Of a DNA stretch of 64,000 nt, positions 2,300-51,943 are shown piece after piece. Numbering within the stretch: position 1 is the stretch's first letter; the number at the start of each line of letters is the position of its first letter. Position numbers and translations under genes: made by a program. The notes beneath the pieces are model-generated. The model worked only from the letters and a program-made list of their open reading frames with translations, had not been told where the DNA came from and did not search any database. Source of the DNA: Cladophialophora immunda (Eukaryota; Ascomycota; Eurotiomycetes; Chaetothyriales; Herpotrichiellaceae); the NCBI RefSeq assembly GCF_000835495.1, contig NW_015622545.1, positions 2,372,777 to 2,436,776 of the forward strand. The letters are read 5' to 3'.

Positions 2300-5200
2300 A
2301 CTAGTCCTAGTTTCGCGTTTAGGTCTCTATATAATTCCAGTAGGGATTTATAGAATACCGAGTATATTTCTAGTATCTTTAGGAGATCCAGTTCGTATAT
2401 AACTAGTCCTAGTTTCTTTTTAATACGATATAGTCCGATTTTAGTATAATCTAGTTTATCGCTTAGTCATTTTATTTTGATGTTTTTTCTTCTTATATAG
2501 ACTATCCTTCTCTCTTTAAGGTCTAATCCCTTAGATCTTCTTTTATTTTCTCTTTTTACTATTTTTTCCAATATTTTTTATAATTCCTTTTACATTATAT
2601 TATATAACTCTTTTATCTTATCGACCTTAATCCTTACTTCTTCTAATATTAGTTTCTTAAATTTTAATATCTTAAATATATTTAGATAGTATCTATAAGT
2701 TATATAAAATAGTGATATTCCTATTACGGCGGTACTATTATTAAATGCTATTTATGCCGTTAGTAGTAGTTATACCTAATTATCTTACTAATAGTTAACG
2801 TAGTATCGTAAATATTATTCTAATGTTTAGTTTATTCTTTCCGTTTAACTATCTATCTATAGGTAGTATACCGTTAATAACTTTATATCTATCCCTAAGA
2901 GGTCTATTAAGGATTACTAAAACTATAATGTGAATAGTTTATCTCTATCTAAGATTATCTCATTTAGTATCCTATATTATAATATAACTATTCTAACGAA
3001 TAAGTAGGCTAAATCTTTTACTATCGCCTTTTTAGTAAATAGTAGTATATATACGTATTTCGTTAGTCTTTCAATAACTACTATAATACTATTATACTCT
3101 TTACTTATAAGGAGTTCTCGAGATATTAGTAGTTTTATAATAAAGTTGATTATAATTAAGTTCTACGGTCTATTTAGTATTTATAGTACTATAAGTAATC
3201 CGTATAGTCTATATCGTTCTTTCTTTATTTTCTTATAGGTATTATATTTTCTAATATATTCTTTGATATCTTTTCTAAGTCCTTTCTATATAAAGTCTCT
3301 TATAATTAACTCGATTGTTTTTATAATTCTAGGGTACTCTATAAGTTAACTATTATATCTTTCTTTTATAATATCCTATTTTTACTCTTTAGTTAGCTCT
3401 ATATCTATAATTACTAAATTATAGTTATATCCTCTATATTATAGTGTCTACCTATTAGTCTTAAGTAGCGTATTAGGTTCAGGTCCTACTGCCCCTATAT
3501 AGTCTAGTCTTCTACTTAATATATCTACTTAACTATTTTCGGTTCCTTTAATATAGTAGATTCTAAAGTCGTATCTTACTAAAGTTTCTACCTATCTCAC
3601 TTATTATCTATTTAGATCCTTTATCGTTATCTAGTAAGTAAGGTTCTTATAGTTAGTGAATATCTATACCGAGTATTTTACTCCTTCTAGATATACTCTC
3701 TATTATTATAATACTTCTATAATAGCGAGTAATTCTTTATTATAGATATTATAGTTTAATTCTAGTTAAGTTATTTATCTCGAGTAGTAAGCTATAGATT
3801 ATGATCGGCTATTCTCGTCTTTCTATATAAGATATACCCCTATTATCTCGTCTAATGTATTAGTTTCGAGTATTAACTCCTTTTCTAGGTTAAATAATAT
3901 AAGGATAGGTATAGAGGTTATCTATCTCTTTAGCCCCTTAAAGGTATATTTATATTTATTATCTTAGTTAAAGATATAGTCTTTCTTTATTAAATTTATT
4001 AGGGGTACTACGATTCTCGAAAATCCTTAGATAAACCTCCTATAGTAGTTAATAAGACCTAAGAACTATTATACTTCTTTTATACTTATTAGTATAGACT
4101 AGTCGTTAATAGCCTAAACTTTATTAGGGTTTAGCGTTAGTCCTTATAATAATACGATATAGCCTAGGAATGTTATTATATATATATAGAATTTGTATTT
4201 ACTTAATTTGATCAGTAGATCCTTTTCTCTTAGTACTTATAGGACCTTCCGTACGTATTAGATATACTTATCGTATGTTTTGGAAAATATAAGGATATTG
4301 TCTAAGTAGGTGACGATAAACTCGTCTAAGTATTCTCTTAGAGTATCGTTAATAAGTTCTTAGAAGGTGACTAGTACGTTAGTTAGTCTAAAGGGTATTA
4401 CTTAATACTTATATAGGCCTTATCTAGTCCTAAATACCGTCTTCTATTCTTCTCCTTCCTTTATCCTTACCCTATAGTAGGCGTCTCTAACGTTAATTAC
4501 CGAGAACTATTTAGCTCCTAAGAGTCGGTCCTATAATTCATCAATTCTTAGTATTAGATATTAATTTTTCTTTATTATCGCGTTAAGGCGTCTATAGTTA
4601 ATATATAGTCTTAATCCCCCGTCCTTTTTTAGTATAAAGAGTACTATATAAGCTACTTTTAACTTTAAAGATCTAATAAACTCTTTTATAAGGTATTTAT
4701 TAATATACTCTTTAAGGAAGTCTTCTTCTTTTTTAGATATTAGAATTAGTTATGCGTAGTATTCTAGATCATTTTCTTCTTCTAAGGGTATCTTATAATC
4801 TTATAGTTTATATTCTAGTAAGGCCGCGTTACCTTCTCTTTCTTTAGCGAGGTCTTTAAAGTCTTTGTATTCCGATAATATCTCCCTAATACTAAAGCTA
4901 GTTAGTATACGTTCTATTAGTCGCACTAAAATCATTCTTTTTAGAGCCTTTAAGGATAATCGGTCCTCTCTTTATACGGTACTATATTTCGTAAATATTA
5001 CTATCCTTATTTACTAGTTAATAGTTAGGTTATATTTCTAAAGCTAGTCTATTCCTAAAACTACGTCGTATCCTAGGATATCTATTATATCTAGATTTAT
5101 CATTTCCTCGTATTTTGTAATCGTTAACGGAACGTTTTTCATTTCTATCGTTATCTATCTTAATAGTTATCTATCTATTATCTTTAAGAGGTATAGAAGT

Positions 5201-5400
5201 CTTTTCTTCGCTTCGTATTTATATAGTTTCCTAACTATAGTTATACTCATATAGCTCTAGTTAGCTCCTAAGTTAATTATAATAGTAATCTAAATACTCG
5301 CTAATTCTATCATAAGGGCTACGTAGCGATTATCTAATATAGTTATCTCTCTTAACTCCTAAGGCTTTCTAATCCTTAGGTTATTATTATGACTCCTCCG
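2300..5400 (-). pseudogene. Gypsy pol remnant (protease end, RT, RNase H, integrase), RIP-destroyed
   Basis: The reverse-transcriptase core is readable near 4,268-4,330 on the minus strand. The YLDNILIFS motif corresponds to the catalytic YxDD box, with the second Asp turned to Asn by a G-to-A change. About 750 bp upstream in the reading direction is a VVLGID(W)L stretch, the usual end of retropepsin. It has many in-frame stops and cannot encode a working enzyme. RNase H and integrase are placed by order only. Confidence 0.65.
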
Positions 5401-6899
5401 CCTTATTAAGTTATCACTCATAAGTTTTTTAGTTAGTGTATATATCGCTCTCTATCCCATTAGTACTTAGTGTTAAAATACTCCTCTAATATCTCAAATA
5501 CCCTAGGGTATACTAGGACATTTTCGACATCTAGGTTAATATTATAGATATATCGATACTTTATCTTTATATTATATTTTTCCTTATTTAGATAGTAGAA
5601 ATCATCTGCTATGAAATCTCCGTCCGCTCTATTATCGACTATTTCTTCGATAATAAATAGCCTATATAGATCTCCTCCGCCGTCATTACTATTAGTGAAC
5701 ATTATATTTAGTATACCTTCTTAGTAATATAAGTATAATTCTCTCCTCTATTAGTATTCTTATTTATCGTATATTTAGTCTACCTCTATAAGGTTAGCGT
5801 AGACTCCTCTAGATATTAGTATATAGAGCCGTCTTAGATTAATATTCTAGTAATGTAAATGATCTCCGTATTACTATTAGTAGTCTTTATCTTCGTACAA
5901 AAGTCTTTTATAGTAATAGTCCGGATCTTCGCGTTCGTTAATTACCTTTCTATTCCTTAAGAGTCCCGATATCGATAGAATTAGCTTAAGAATAACTCCT
6001 TTTTCTCGCTATACTTCTTTAAGTTTATTTCTTTTAGTAATAATTCTCTTTATAGTCCCCTCTAGAAGTCTTATTTTAACTATTACTAGTTCTACCGGTT
6101 AATAGATATATATATCTTCTTTATATTCGTACTCTCAGTCCTAGTACTATTTTATATTGATTTTCTTAAGTAGTGACTATAGTAACCTAAAAGAGTTATA
6201 AACTACGTATTAGTATAGTATATTAAGATAATACTTAGTCTTATAGTTATCTACCTTCTAGAAGTTAGTGACGATCTCGACATCGTACTTATCACTTTCT
6301 AGTACTACGTACTATTAGTATATAGTATCCTCCCCTAACATAAGGTTCTCATTTAGTTCTTAGATAATAACGTTATCGTTTACGTAACTATTATAAAGTA
6401 TATATATTAGTTAGTAACCTATAAGCGGGTCAATATTATCGTATAATTCTCCTATATTAGTCTACGCCTCTCTAATATGCGCGACTATCTAGTAGTCCCG
6501 GCATCTTTCGTAGGTATGGACTAGTTACACTATTCTAGTACCTTCTAGTACTATTATCATATTAAGGCTCTATTCTTATGACGGTATAATTAGTATCGTA
6601 AACGCTTTATTACCTTTTCCCACATACGAATGTATCCCTAGAATAGTATATCCTACCTCTATAGCCTAGTAGATCTCTATTATAATTAAAACTAGTTCAT
6701 CGGCTGACTACCCTAGATCGAATATAGGGTGGAGGTACTCTACTTCTAGTCCGTAATTATCTTTATACTAGTATTTTAATAATCTCTAGTAAGGTGTGAT
6801 TATTATTATTTCCTTATCGTTATATTTAATCACGATAAATATAGTAAGTTCTTCTAGTTCTAGTATACGCATTATCTAGAATCCTTATTTATTATTAAT

Positions 6900-28967: not shown

Positions 28968-30335
28968 TCATGCGACGCCTGATCCGAAGACCTCGGAATG
29001 GATGTATTCCTTCGGAACGCCCAGAGCCTCCAGTGTCTGTTGCTGCAGCTGCATGAATGGGATGGGCCCGCACAGATAGTATTGGGCGTTCGGAAGCAGG
29101 GCAATGTCTTTGACCTTGTCGAACTCGATCCTGCCCTCGAAGTCATAGTCGACCCCTTCCCTGTCAGCCTCGCCGATCTGCTCATAAAACACGGCCTTTT
29201 TGACCTGTGGATTCTTCTCCACCACGCGCGAGAGGTAGTCTTTCATGGCGTGGACGTGGCCCGACCGGACGGCGTGGATGAAGCCGACAGGGCGGGTTTC
29301 GCTCTGCCCGATCACGGTCCCCAACATGGACAGCATGGGCGTGATGCCGACACCCGCGCTGATCAAGACTACAGGCGTGTCCGCGTCGACGTCCAGGAAA
29401 AAGTCCCCACGCGGCATGCTGACATCGATCTGTGCTCCCTCGGGGACGTCCTCGTGCAGCACGTTCGAGATCCGGCCGGCCGGGATGGGCCCTCTGGCAG
29501 ACTCCTTCTTCACTGAGATCCGAAAATGCTTGCCGTCTGGGATGTCCGACAGGCTGTACTGCCGCGGTTGGTAGACTCCGAGTTCCGGGAGGAAGACCCT
29601 CACCGAGACATATTGCCCCGACTGAAACCCAGGGAGAGGTCCCTTGTCGGCGGGTTCGAGGTAGAAGGAGACGATCTCGTCACTCTCATACACCTTCTTT
29701 GCGACCGTGAACGTACGCCACCCATTCCAGCCGCCTGTAGTGTTCTCGGCCTGTCTGTAGAGATCCCGCTCGAAGTTGATGAAGATGTCTGCGAGCTGGC
29801 CGTAGGCCGCTTTCCATGCGTCGATTATCTCTTCGGTCACAGCCTCGCCAAGCACCTCTTTGATCGACGCGAGTAACTCCTCGCCCACGATCGGGTATTG
29901 GTCCGGCTGGATATCCAGGCTGGCGTGCTTGTTCCCTATTCTGGAGACGGCGGTTGTCAGCGCACCTAGGTTGTCGATGTTGTTGGCATAGGCCCAGACG
30001 GCATGTGCCAAGGCAGCCGGTTGAGCACCGGTTTCTTGGTGCGCAGTGTTGAAGATGTTGCGGAGGGTGGGATGATTGTTTAGCAGCCTTTTGTAGAAGA
30101 CGCTCGTGATGGCAAGGCCATGTTCTTGCAAAATCGGTGCCGTCGATTTCACGATCGACTTCTGCTGCTCGCTGAGGGCCTCAGCTTGCAGCTTCGAAGA
30201 GGTGTTGAAGAGTTTGCGGCCTATGTAGGGCGTTGCTGCCAGAGCTTTTGAGTCTGTGAGGGCGGCAGATCGCTGTAGAAGGCGGGATGGATTGCAGCCC
30301 ATCAACGTTCGACCTCGGACCACTTTGCTCGCCAT
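28968..30335 (-). CDS. Flavohemoglobin (nitric oxide dioxygenase) with mitochondrial-type leader
   Basis: It converts NO and O2 to nitrate using NAD(P)H and FAD. The 455-residue product has no intron. Its N-terminal 50 residues are Arg/Ser/Ala-rich and acid-poor, like a mitochondrial presequence. The globin domain spans about 55-205: distal Tyr81 (VFYKRLL), Gln105 (GAQPAAL), proximal His137 (NKHASLDI). The FAD domain carries RQYSLSD (258-264). The NAD domain carries AGVGITPML (327-335), CGPIPFM and terminal EVFG. The ATG at 30,335 is chosen because the only longer frame would start with GTG. Fungi often have cytosolic and mitochondrial paralogues; the leader suggests the latter. It faces the 3' end of the MFS gene and is probably nitrosative-stress regulated by family knowledge. 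Confidence 0.95.
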   Translation of the reverse strand: MASKVVRGRTLMGCNPSRLLQRSAALTDSKALAATPYIGRKLFNTSSKLQAEALSEQQKSIVKSTAPILQEHGLAITSVFYKRLLNNHPTLRNIFNTAHQETGAQPAALAHAVWAYANNIDNLGALTTAVSRIGNKHASLDIQPDQYPIVGEELLASIKEVLGEAVTEEIIDAWKAAYGQLADIFINFERDLYRQAENTTGGWNGWRTFTVAKKVYESDEIVSFYLEPADKGPLPGFQSGQYVSVRVFLPELGVYQPRQYSLSDIPDGKHFRISVKKESARGPIPAGRISNVLHEDVPEGAQIDVSMPRGDFFLDVDADTPVVLISAGVGITPMLSMLGTVIGQSETRPVGFIHAVRSGHVHAMKDYLSRVVEKNPQVKKAVFYEQIGEADREGVDYDFEGRIEFDKVKDIALLPNAQYYLCGPIPFMQLQQQTLEALGVPKEYIHSEVFGSGVA

Positions 30336-30398
30336 TTTCGTCTGGGGGTTATGGAACTGCAACCCCAATACAGCTGTCGGACTGAGGAGATCAGCCAC

Positions 30399-47778: not shown

Positions 47779-48927
47779 CCACACGGAGCGACGGACAAGT
47801 TTCACATCACCGTCAAATTGTATGAATATATGCTTGGTCTTCGACTTACACTCGGGAAGCACAGGTCCAACTGTCTGTCTTTGTATATCATGGAGTCTCA
47901 TTGGTGAAGGGCTGACCACGGCATCGTTGCGCTTGCCGCTCTGCATGCGCAAGTGCCTCCTTCTTCACCCGGCGGGAAGAATCTGAGCGGGCAACTCCCA
48001 AAGACGACTATATCAACGAGCACCAACAAACCTTGCAGATGCCAGTGAACATGCAACGCGCGGCCGCACAGCTTGCGCAGGCATCCAAATGTGGCCGCAC
48101 GCTGGCTTTCCAAAGTGCGATCTCCTGGGTATCGGATTCGAGTTGCGATAGAAGATGCTTGGAGGTGCGGGTTCGCCACGAGGCGTCGGAGACAAGGTCT
48201 GGGAAGTCTTTTAAATCCCCACCGAGATCCTCCAGCAAGGCCAGTACGTGAATTATGTCCAACCAGGGGACCAGGAAGATCGCGAAGAGCGTCGACGGAT
48301 CGCACTGCTCTGGACCTTGCATCCGTCCTCTAGCCCTTCTCCACCGCCCGGTTCTGATGGCAGGCGAGCGAGAACTTCTTGTCGAATCCTGCAGTCCGCA
48401 CCGATGCCCAACTTCGTCGGAGATCGAAGAATAAGTCTATAGATGGGATCTACTATATGTTGGTGCTTAGAGCAGTGCGAGCAACATTATAGGCCCAGAA
48501 AGACTACACGGGCGTAAAATCTCAGACCCCAAGTCGCACGCATGAACCTTAAATCTATCCATGATGACCGAGGTCTACCAGGATAGCACCCCATCCCCTG
48601 ACCCTTCATGTCCCGTCGCCTTTAACATGAGCTCCTGGGTCACTGGCAGGATATGTTAGTCAGTCCTGACGATTATTCAGGGCGATCGGCAGTGGTCCCT
48701 GTACGTACAGCTCTCAGCAATGTTAAAGCGACAACTATGATTCTCGCCGCCCACCGACGAGGGCCAGACCTTTCCACCCTTGGATCGCTCGAGGCGGCGA
48801 TGAGATTTGATTTTCTCAAGAAAGACCGAGTCGTGCAGCGTTGGTCGACTACAACATCACCATTGATATTAAGATGTGTTAGCTACTAGCAGCAACCATG
48901 TTCCGGCACGCCATCATCTGTGGCCAC
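47779..48927. other. Convergent intergenic region, no gene recognised
   Basis: It is about 1.15 kb at the 3' ends of the arrestin-like and Rieske genes. Overlapping frames on both strands at 47,898-48,442 (up to 135 codons) carry no motif I recognise and give no spliced product I trust. Confidence 0.45.
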
Positions 48928-50089
48928 CTACCTGCTTTCGCACGCTTGAGCTACAGCATACCGGTCTTCGAGAGAGGAGACACAGCGAACGATATCGGAC
49001 TGGATGGTGCTGAGTAGCGCCGATGTGGCGGAAGATAGCCCTGCCGATGTGTACAACGTGCAATGCACCACGCATTTTGCCGCCGTTTTGGGCTGAACCG
49101 TGATCAGCAAGGAAGAACCGAGATGCCGTAGAGCGAAGACGTCCGACAAGACCGAGGGCTTCGTATGCGTGATATTTCGATTACCTCGTTTCCCGGAGAC
49201 TGTCGGCAGAGAAAATGCATCCTCCGCTTCTGGTCAAATAGTAAGCAAAGATTCGATACCGGCGGGGCCCATATGCGAGCGTCTCTCCTACCGGCCATTT
49301 TCCAATTGAATGTCCCCTCCACCTCCCAGCTTTCCAGGTGCCCTCTGCTGAAGACCTTGTCGTCGACGTACGCATCAGACTCGGGCGGGAGGCTCAGATT
49401 GATGCGGACCACGCCGTCGGCGTCAATAGCGGTATTCACTTCGAGGAGTGAGTTCGCTTCCTTTCGAAATCCCTTCACGTTCTCAAACTTGGGAGCCTTG
49501 ACCAGGTGGCCCTGGAGGTCGTACGTCCAGCCATGGTATCTGCACGCCAGAACCGGGGTGCAGCCCGCCCGCTTCGTCGAAACGACAGGATAGGCACGGT
49601 GTCTGCAGACGTTGTGGAAACAGCGCAGGACTCGGTCCTTGCCGCGGACCAGGAACAGAGGGAATCCCGCTGGGTGTTCGACGATCCGGTACGACCCCGA
49701 ACTGGGAAACATGCTTGCATGAGAGACGGCAATGGACATCTAGGCGAGAATTAGTTAAGACCGAGAAGTTCACCAGTGGTCGCCCGGTGACCCTCTCTTC
49801 GCCGTGGCAGGCAGTCTGGTCGTACCCCAGCAAAGATCGCTCGCCTTTCATCCTCCAGGAGCCCGTCCGACCGCCACCAACCATCCGGGAGATCTGACAC
49901 TTTGGCGACCTCGCCGGCCGCCGTTGCGTCGCCGATGTCGCACAGTCTGCCGCGGGGAAACGGGCTCTCGACCGGTCCAGGCCGCGGTGAGGACCATAAT
50001 GTGAAGACGACTGTGACCGCGACGGCCGTGCAGGTGACGAGAGCGACCGAAGCGGTTGAGCAAAGAATATCAATGGCCGTTGCCTGCAT
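48928..50089 (-). CDS. Membrane-anchored Rieske [2Fe-2S] protein lacking the mononuclear-iron site
   Basis: Three exons, 49,826-50,089, 49,292-49,739 and 48,928-49,229, close to 337 residues with introns of 86 and 62 nt. Residues about 9-32 form a hydrophobic anchor. An LPDGWW...ERRAIF start typical of Rieske oxygenase alpha subunits follows. The cluster ligands are Cys133-x-His135 and Cys154-x2-His157, followed by GWTYDLQGHLVKAP. After GTFNWKM, where oxygenases normally continue into the D/E-x2-H-x4-H iron site, the protein jumps through a short linker to a C-terminal beta-strand segment (SLLITVQPKTAAKC). So it could carry electrons but not activate oxygen alone. It lies 827 bp downstream of a gene with the complementary domain, on the same strand. 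Confidence 0.82.
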
Positions 50090-50916
50090 TTTTTTTTTTC
50101 CCTGCGATTATACCTCTGGTTCGCCGGTGAACCTGAAACAGTGAAACTTGCTACTGCGCACGACGAACAAAAGAAAGAAAAAGGCGTCGGCGACTATAAA
50201 GCAAGGGCCACGATACAGAGTCAATGAGATCGAAGGAAAGGTGGGCACAGTCGTGCATATCACGACTCCCGCACTCGAAGCCGCTCATCAGGCCGTGGCT
50301 CCAGGTCCACGGATGTGGGTGTCGCGCTGTACGGCTCTCATTGAGATGCGAATCTGCATCCTTCCCTTCGGTCCCAGGACACCCCCCGCAACATCCTGCG
50401 AGTGACTGGATCAGAGGAGAGACGGCGGACGCAACAGATGGGACCTGTTGACCTTAGCAGGAAGCCATGTCCGGGAACAAAAGTCAACGACGGCGAGATC
50501 GATAGGGGCCCGTGCGGGCCTGGGCTCTGCATGCATGGGCCGTTGCCAGAAATAGAGAATAAATAGAGTTGAAAGCCACTCGTGGGGGGGCGTGAACTTG
50601 CCTACCTCTTGCGGCGATCTCGGTTCGGTTGTGGCCAGGATCGTGGACCATTCATTATCTGTTCGGTGGAGACGGTGCAGCAAAAAGAGGGGGACGTTCA
50701 TTCTTCCCATTATTACAACGGGACGGGAATCACCGTGTTGATATCATGGCCCTTATCTTGGTCACGGTCTGGCATTACAAGACAAGAGTGTGCGGATCAG
50801 CTAGCCATCTTGTTGACCTTTGGTGGTTTTATCACGATTCCTGTATTCCTTGCGACTATCATGATCGGTACAATCCACCGACAGTCTCAAAACTCCCTGT
50901 TCGATTGTGAGTCGCT
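50090..50916 (-). promoter_or_regulatory. Intergenic region holding the promoter of the Rieske gene
   Basis: It is 827 bp between the two oxygenase-family genes. A 12-base poly-T run (poly-A on the minus strand) lies directly upstream of the ATG at 50,089. No remnant of a catalytic or Rieske motif was found here, so the two genes are not simply one gene interrupted by a long intron. Confidence 0.5.
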
Positions 50917-51943
50917 TCAATGTGCCGAGAGTGTAACCTTCTTCTCTTCCGCGTGCTGAGCCATGACCATCTCGAATACCCGCTGCTGATAGTCTTGACA
51001 CATGTCAGCTTCAATACACCCGCATTCCATCCCCTGCCATCTTGGGGGATAATGAACTTACGAGCAACGCCGTTCTCCTTCTCGGGGTTCAGGCATCCTT
51101 CAGTGTAGATGCCCCTCTCGAGATTCGCCTGGGCTCGCTCGCACAGGTCGAAGTCCTCGTTGGCCACCTGGCGGACGAACTTGTAGTACACTTCAAACGG
51201 CTCCCCGGACGCCTGGTGGTAGTAGTCGAACTCCATCCGAGACACGCCGGGTTTGGGCGTCGGACAGGCCCGAAACGAGGAGATGCCCCCGTTGTAGAGG
51301 TTCAACGTGGTGTTGGGGAAGAAGTACAAGAAGAGCCCGTCCTGCGACTCGTCCCGCGTCGCAAAGTGCCGGGACCAGTTGTGGTGGTTGATGACGCGGT
51401 AGAAGGTGGGCGGGTAGAGCCTCGACAGGCCCGGGTGCGTGAACTGGCAATGGAGACACTCCTGGAAGCCGTCCATCATGGTCTTCCAGTTGAAGTTCCC
51501 GTCGTAGGCGAGGCTGCGCCGGTAGGGGATCTGCGTGAAGTCGTACGCCTCAACCAGCTTCTCGAGCCCCGGGTAAAACTCTTCGAACGGCGGTGCATGG
51601 GACGAGATGGTTGAAAACACGAGGCCCGAGCGGGTTTGGTGGCTGTGTAGTTGTTCGCCCTGGATAGTTATCTATACTCAGGAACCGTTTTTAATCATCC
51701 ATGGCTTCAGCAGGCACGTACAGAGGTCTCAGCGTATGTGTTGACTTCCTTCTGGTCCCCCGCGAGGGTGGTTCTTGCAATCAACGCGATTTGGGCAATC
51801 TCGAAGCGGAGGTCGTTGCCGCTCTCAAACTTGGACAGGGTTCCCAGAAAGTACCATGACCGTAGGAACACGGCACGGCGTTCGAGCATATGGATCGGCT
51901 TGCTGCAATACCAACTTGCCGGCAGGGTGGTCGGAACATCCAT
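50917..51943 (-). CDS. Rieske-oxygenase-family catalytic protein lacking the Rieske cluster
   Basis: Exons 51,722-51,943, 51,062-51,659 and 50,917-50,993 join to 298 residues, with introns of 62 and 68 nt and standard signals. The start TLPASWYCSK...ERRAVFLRSWYFLGT is the usual N-terminus of Rieske oxygenase alpha subunits. The next 50 residues contain no C-x-H and no C-x2-H pair. The catalytic domain follows: GNFNWKTMMDGFQECLHCQF with Glu141, His144 and His149 as the mononuclear-iron box, and NEDFDLCE near 241-248 for the likely acidic ligand. The C-terminus FEMVMAQHAEEK matches a full-length family end. It presumably needs an external electron donor, possibly the neighbouring Rieske protein. 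Substrate unknown; the family includes choline monooxygenase-like enzymes. Confidence 0.85.

Follow-up and report, generated by a model that had tools for sequence, protein, structure and literature searches.

Introduction

Rieske oxygenases such as CntA rely on electron transfer between adjacent subunits. CntA, a Group Va enzyme (PDB 6Y8J, 6ZGP), carries its Rieske cluster and its catalytic iron in one chain and forms an alpha3 trimer, in which a bridging glutamate relays electrons from the Rieske cluster of the neighbouring subunit. An aromatic residue at CntA position 203 is a criterion for Group Va quaternary-ammonium oxygenases (PMC7948474). The available part of PMC10952381 gives Cys-x2-Cys beside the first His ligand as a feature of some Group V enzymes and describes CntA as capable of a peroxide shunt. 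In this study, we analysed a stretch of 64,000 nucleotides from the fungus Cladophialophora immunda (assembly GCF_000835495.1, contig NW_015622545.1, positions 2,372,777 to 2,436,776 of the forward strand; hereafter the window). Two adjacent genes in this window, A and B, divide the two centres between them, and their sequences and structure models indicate that they probably encode two subunits of one heteromeric Rieske oxygenase, in which the cluster of A would reduce the iron of B.

An oxygenase of two chains is not without precedent. The chlorophyllide a oxygenase of the green alga Micromonas pusilla serves chlorophyll b synthesis, and Kunugi et al. reportedly described in 2013 that its Rieske site is on one chain and its iron site on the other. 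The accessible text of PMC9615114 gives two polypeptide chains, so that the statement of an earlier note on this DNA that both centres lie on one polypeptide in known enzymes is not entirely correct. The same text states that the isolated enzyme produced chlorophyllide b in vitro, that a heterodimer had been suggested earlier and that a trimer of dimers was thought likely. In contrast to the algal enzyme, the fungal A and B best match quaternary-ammonium enzymes. The fungal pair is apparently a new variant of independent origin beside the Micromonas precedent, as judged from its subfamily.

Other hetero-oligomers, the alpha3-beta3 and alpha3-alpha'3 Rieske oxygenases, are described in the available part of the review PMC12445004, the beta subunits being without catalytic centres. 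That part of the review contained no case of two centres divided between chains, and a term search of it found no mention of fungi or Micromonas. A literature search of titles and the openings of abstracts, outside which most subscription journals lay, likewise found no account of a fungal or split case.

Results

The features of the pair, in window positions, are as follows.

50917..51943, minus strand: gene B, predicted catalytic subunit, 298 amino acids (aa); exons 51943-51722, 51659-51062 and 50993-50917
51435..51461, minus strand: iron box E-C-L-H-C-Q-F-T-H of gene B, from residue-by-residue alignment with CntA (6y8j)
51153..51155, minus strand: codon of Asp247 of gene B, which corresponds to CntA Asp323 in the alignment and completes the facial triad as its third ligand
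50090..50916: spacer of 827 bp between the stop of B and the start of A, with both genes on the minus strand and B upstream
48575..50089, minus strand: gene A, predicted Rieske subunit, 405 aa; exons 50089-49826, 49739-49292, 49229-48932, 48848-48709 and 48642-48575
49991..50083, minus strand: predicted N-terminal membrane-anchor helix of gene A, residues 3-33 (AlphaFold2 helix 3-33)
49533..49607, minus strand: Rieske [2Fe-2S] ligands Cys133, His135, Cys154 and His157 of gene A, invariant in the alignment
48578..48586, minus strand: C-terminal Leu-Ser-Trp of gene A, matching the cytosolic iron-sulphur (Fe-S) assembly (CIA) signal [LIM]-[DES]-[WF]-COOH given in the available part of PMC10623007

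Both genes have GT-AG introns and closed reading frames, as the earlier note had described for these two adjacent members of the Rieske oxygenase alpha family. Its account of gene B, 298 aa with an iron box and no Rieske ligands, also stood. Gene B ends in a stop codon after a family-like C-terminus, and no ligands of the pattern C-x-H...C-x2-H occur in its sequence. If exon 2 begins at 51671, at an acceptor 12 nucleotides upstream, the product has 302 aa; this variant is exactly the deposited C. immunda protein P0001, which comes from another assembly and has PF00848 as its sole Pfam domain. The 298-aa model looks better because the four extra residues are missing in all 11 relatives compared. 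In the 302-aa numbering, which is used throughout, the iron box comprises the bridging Glu145, Cys146, His148, Cys149 and His153 (Glu141, His144 and His149 in the shorter form). Gene B is a predicted alpha subunit without the cluster-binding part of the Rieske domain, which keeps the facial triad, Glu145 and the remaining fold.

For gene A, the anchor, the Rieske ligands and the missing iron box agreed with the earlier note, and the end of the gene did not. The 337-aa model ending at 48928 reads through the donor of the third intron and was rejected. Adding two introns (48931-48849 and 48708-48643) extends the gene to five exons and an end at 48575, and its 405-aa product is identical to the deposited PV07_09026 (P0121). 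The two extra exons complete the conserved C-terminal region and supply the terminal tryptophan. They restore no iron box, and the complementary arrangement of motifs is unaffected by the correction. The box was found neither in window gene A (A1) nor in A2, the Rieske gene of a second pair described below. Within the predicted anchor of A, residues 13-31 have a Kyte-Doolittle mean of 2.19. The sole Pfam domain of P0121, and also of P0260, is PF00355. Gene A is a predicted alpha subunit without the iron box, which keeps the Rieske cluster site, the N-terminal hydrophobic helix and the C-terminal Trp tail. Neither A nor B has both centres in one polypeptide, a trait that is usual but not universal among Rieske oxygenases. 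Since PF00848 occurs only in P0001 and PF00355 only in P0121 and P0260, it is the pair and not the single gene that is the candidate oxygenase.

Structure prediction, one of the steps proposed in the earlier note, gave confident folds in which each model spans a whole alpha subunit with its two domains. The closest structures to both models were quaternary-ammonium oxygenases. CntA was the top sequence match of the A and B profiles in the PDB, the best fold match for B and a near-best one for A. Like CntA, B possesses the facial triad, the bridging Glu, the Cys-x2-Cys motif and an aromatic residue at position 203. The difference lies in the arrangement: both centres of CntA are in each chain of its trimer, whereas the fungal centres are divided between two proteins, of which one has a predicted membrane anchor. 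Full-length fungal choline-monooxygenase-like enzymes (e.g. P0182, P0220) have both centres on one chain. They share the Glu, Cys pair and Tyr/Phe of B in all 60 of the 68 proteins in which the pattern was found, and the iron-box pattern is present in 46 of the 49 with at least 390 aa. The Cys pair and Tyr/Phe143 of B suggest a quaternary ammonium substrate of the choline/carnitine type.

Conservation of the two halves was assessed among the matches listed. For B these are the best 120 of 359 matches to the gene B search, whose length filter lets full-length enzymes through, so that such enzymes could have shown up. For A they are the best 120 of 1609 matches to the gene A query and the best 120 of 1172 to an alignment of 19 A-type proteins; from both, an A-type set (101) and a full-length set (68) were typed by Pfam domains. 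P0167 (both domains, 275 aa), P0172 (Rieske-only, 226 aa) and four fused models were left out of these sets, and three Rieske-only fragments in the full-length set (P0183, P0208, P0219) are removed by the 390-aa threshold. NCBIfam matches were far below the cut-off.

All 120 listed B homologues have PF00848 alone, the box E-C-L-H-C-x-x-x-H and Cys-x2-Cys around the first His ligand, and none has Rieske ligands. The facial triad (H148/H153/D247), the bridging Glu145 and the Cys pair are invariant in the 74 aligned B proteins. The equivalent of CntA position 203 is always aromatic (Y 60 and F 14 of the 74 aligned; Y 99 and F 21 of the 120 listed). All 77 aligned A-type proteins keep the four Rieske ligands, as do 100 of the 101 in the wider set, the exception being P0132, a 226-aa fragment. 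Chance matches to the iron-box pattern occur in three of the 101 (P0124, P0189, P0265); two are far from the site, and that of P0124 is about 10 residues past N-W-K and without the E-C-x-H-C context. In both A searches Rieske-only proteins rank first and full-length ones after.

The listed B homologues include Aspergillus, Penicillium, Talaromyces and Histoplasma, together with genera of Dothideomycetes and Leotiomycetes. Quick, midpoint-rooted trees that included 20 full-length fungal enzymes placed 23 B proteins behind one branch (support 100) and 33 A proteins behind another (support 99). By these alignments and trees, A and B are each a conserved family forming one clade.

The two families are also linked. 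The species counts cover the matches listed, with C. immunda (whose linkage is seen in the window), fused models and entries without a species name set aside. On this basis 65 named species have A, 81 have B and 22 have both. In 19 of the 22, A and B are on a common contig, as inferred from equal contig sizes, the shortest being 65 kb; this was the outcome of the search for the same pair in other fungi that the earlier note had proposed. The chance probability of such linkage is about 10^-32, a figure that assumes 35-Mb genomes and independent species and is indicative only. Locus tags of A and B are consecutive in C. yegresii, E. spinifera, E. bonariae, Oleoguttula and Knufia, and the B protein P0097 of Calycina marina and the A-type protein P0244 each come from a contig of 11,568 bp. 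A and B distances over 22 pairs are correlated (r 0.74; r 0.68 for the 16 without Chaetothyriales), and 0 of 10,000 permutations were as high in either set. Four deposited models fuse B to A, with B first (P0241, P0242, P0243, P0247): those of two Blastomyces species are 820 aa long, that of Aspergillus sergii 716 aa and that of A. avenaceus 714 aa. They may be run-on annotations or genuine fusions. We used them for the tandem order only, because the B of A. sergii is without its usual last exon, which suggests that this model is a run-on annotation.

The C. immunda genome contains a second split pair.

Locus L017 (G000:C2:2515500-2524500): A2 at 4907-6313, plus strand, and B2 at 4187-3037, minus strand (positions within L017)

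This pair is divergent, with 719 bp between the start codons of A2 (deposited as PV07_03168) and B2 and a UPF0029 protein nearby. The window pair clusters with Oleoguttula, Zasmidium and Polychaeton in both the A and B trees (supports 93 and 96), and pair 2 stands apart; because the same separate grouping appears in both trees, the two members of each pair have a common history distinct from that of the other pair. A protein search of the genome found no third B-type gene, the other matches (about 29-44% identity) being full-length loci. One locus considered as a further Rieske-only gene, L018 (G000:C4:4335500-4340500), was rejected: immediately downstream, a different frame contains an iron box, and L018 probably encodes a full-length enzyme whose coding sequence is interrupted there by an intron.

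The accessory elements are divided in the same way as the centres. A hydrophobic segment precedes the Rieske domain in 72 of 81 A-type proteins (at least 360 aa), versus 0 of 49 full-length enzymes (at least 390 aa). No listed B protein (0/120) has one within the first 60 residues, and a single B protein has one beyond residue 60. A terminal Trp is found in 61 of the 81 A-type, 45 of the 49 full-length and 1 of the 120 B proteins, and the strict [LIM]-[DES]-[WF] end in 36, 8 and 0, respectively. According to the available part of PMC10623007, this C-terminal tripeptide recruits the cytosolic Fe-S targeting complex, its named carriers include choline monooxygenase and Neverland, and tail and Fe-S ligands are conserved jointly. 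From these counts, the predicted anchor and the Trp tail go with A and not with B, the tail having stayed with the cluster. Many of the remaining proteins with a terminal Trp, including full-length fungal Rieske oxygenases, end in Leu-Ala-Trp, and in fungi Ala may be an accepted residue of the targeting tripeptide.

Around the pair, positions 38251-63921 of the window contain a P450, an aldehyde dehydrogenase, a sugar transporter, an arrestin-like protein, a Zn2Cys6 regulator, a zinc alcohol dehydrogenase and a short-chain dehydrogenase, possibly a catabolic cluster. A flavohaemoglobin-like frame with globin, FAD and NAD domains lies at 28971-30398 on the minus strand. No clear substrate emerged from these neighbours (Zn2Cys6 regulator, dehydrogenases, transporter, P450, flavohaemoglobin). 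Positions 2001-24000 are AT-rich (GC 0.26-0.40, versus 0.48-0.57 from 26 kb onward), and no open frame of at least 180 aa was seen before 26,750; the block at 2001-24000 is perhaps gene-poor, repeat-degraded or centromere-like.

Discussion

In the heteromeric enzyme that we consider likely, the tail of A would bring in the cytosolic Fe-S assembly machinery to supply the [2Fe-2S] cluster, and A would be membrane-bound facing the cytosol and would accept single electrons from a reductase. It would dock head-to-tail on B, like neighbouring subunits of a homotrimer. Electrons would then pass from the Rieske cluster of A through Glu145 of B to the iron of B, where O2 would be activated and the substrate oxidised.

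Several observations weigh against this proposal. A scan of 16 window frames revealed no dedicated Rieske-oxygenase reductase, and the nearest FAD/NAD reductase module is the flavohaemoglobin, about 18.5 kb from the pair. Even alternation of A and B is impossible in a trimer, and the assembly must therefore differ from a plain trimer (heterodimers, or a trimer of dimers as proposed for the Micromonas enzyme). The median ratio of A to B distances is about 2.5, A being the faster-changing partner, and a terminal Trp is missing from 20 of the 81 A-type proteins that reach 360 aa, in some perhaps owing to gene models. The correlation of A and B distances is partly due to common species history. 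Three of the 22 species with both genes show no shared contig size: Knufia nonetheless has consecutive tags, the Aspergillus tubingensis entries represent many sequences and may derive from different assemblies, and Rhinocladiella shows a pair-2-type A and a pair-1-type B. The earlier note had looked to relatives for the pair; it is present in many, and a named A was missing for 59 of the 81 B-bearing species among the matches listed, which are word-filtered and do not establish absence. B may have donors other than A.

The alternative that follows from this last point is that B works with a full-length Rieske oxygenase, a soluble ferredoxin, a P450-type reductase or peroxide, that A is a membrane Rieske carrier for other partners, and that their adjacency reflects a common pathway. 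Besides the 59 species, the presence in the genome of several loci with both Rieske and catalytic domains speaks for it, and the peroxide shunt described for CntA in the available part of PMC10952381 is in keeping with it. However, the bridging Glu, which in CntA takes electrons from the neighbouring subunit's cluster, is present in every listed B protein, A keeps a whole alpha-type fold unlike a small ferredoxin, and two separately descended pairs are both still linked. We therefore regard this alternative as unlikely.

A second alternative is that A, B or both are relics or regulators without enzymatic activity; in the form raised by the earlier note, they are paralogues that carry complementary deletions and do not act together. 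The fast divergence of A and the fragmentary A-type predictions (20 of 101 below 360 aa) are what would be expected of it. It is very improbable, however, given the confident predicted folds, and we discarded it on the cofactor ligands, which are invariant in both alignments where relaxed selection had been a concern, and on conservation and linkage across distant fungi. With both families conserved, linked in distant fungi and paired twice in the genome with separate histories, the comparison favours the division of labour that the earlier note had set against functionless paralogues.

That A and B are joined in the true transcript, or that extra exons restore both centres, is scarcely credible despite the fused models from Blastomyces, A. 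sergii and A. avenaceus: the window B has its stop and family-like C-terminus before the 827-bp spacer, apart from those models A and B are listed as distinct proteins, the A. sergii model looks like a run-on, a real fusion would still hold the same two half-sites, and the divergent second pair, which cannot be a single transcript, rules out one mis-modelled gene.

As for the origin of the putative two-subunit enzyme, a one-chain enzyme was likely duplicated, each copy then losing a different centre. Such complementary loss is possible because electrons already cross between subunits in Rieske oxygenases. On balance we favour, with some reserve, the broader view that the obligate two-chain Rieske oxygenase evolved independently a second time and is widespread and unrecognised in filamentous ascomycetes. 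Under this scenario one centre was lost per copy after duplication, the electron-entry subunit gained an anchor and alone kept the Fe-S tail, its soluble catalytic partner is reduced in trans, and at least two separately descended pairs persist in one genome.

If the proposal is correct, the donor and acceptor sites could be separately mutated, labelled and swapped, with no second copy of each centre as in homotrimers. The Fe-S delivery tail, kept with the cluster and gone from the cluster-free partner, would provide a test case for that signal. Fungal entries labelled 'choline monooxygenase' or 'Rieske domain', each of which would seem inactive by itself, would gain a function. More generally, the dependence of one subunit on the next would have let a homomer become an obligate heteromer by complementary loss, with one partner placed at a membrane.
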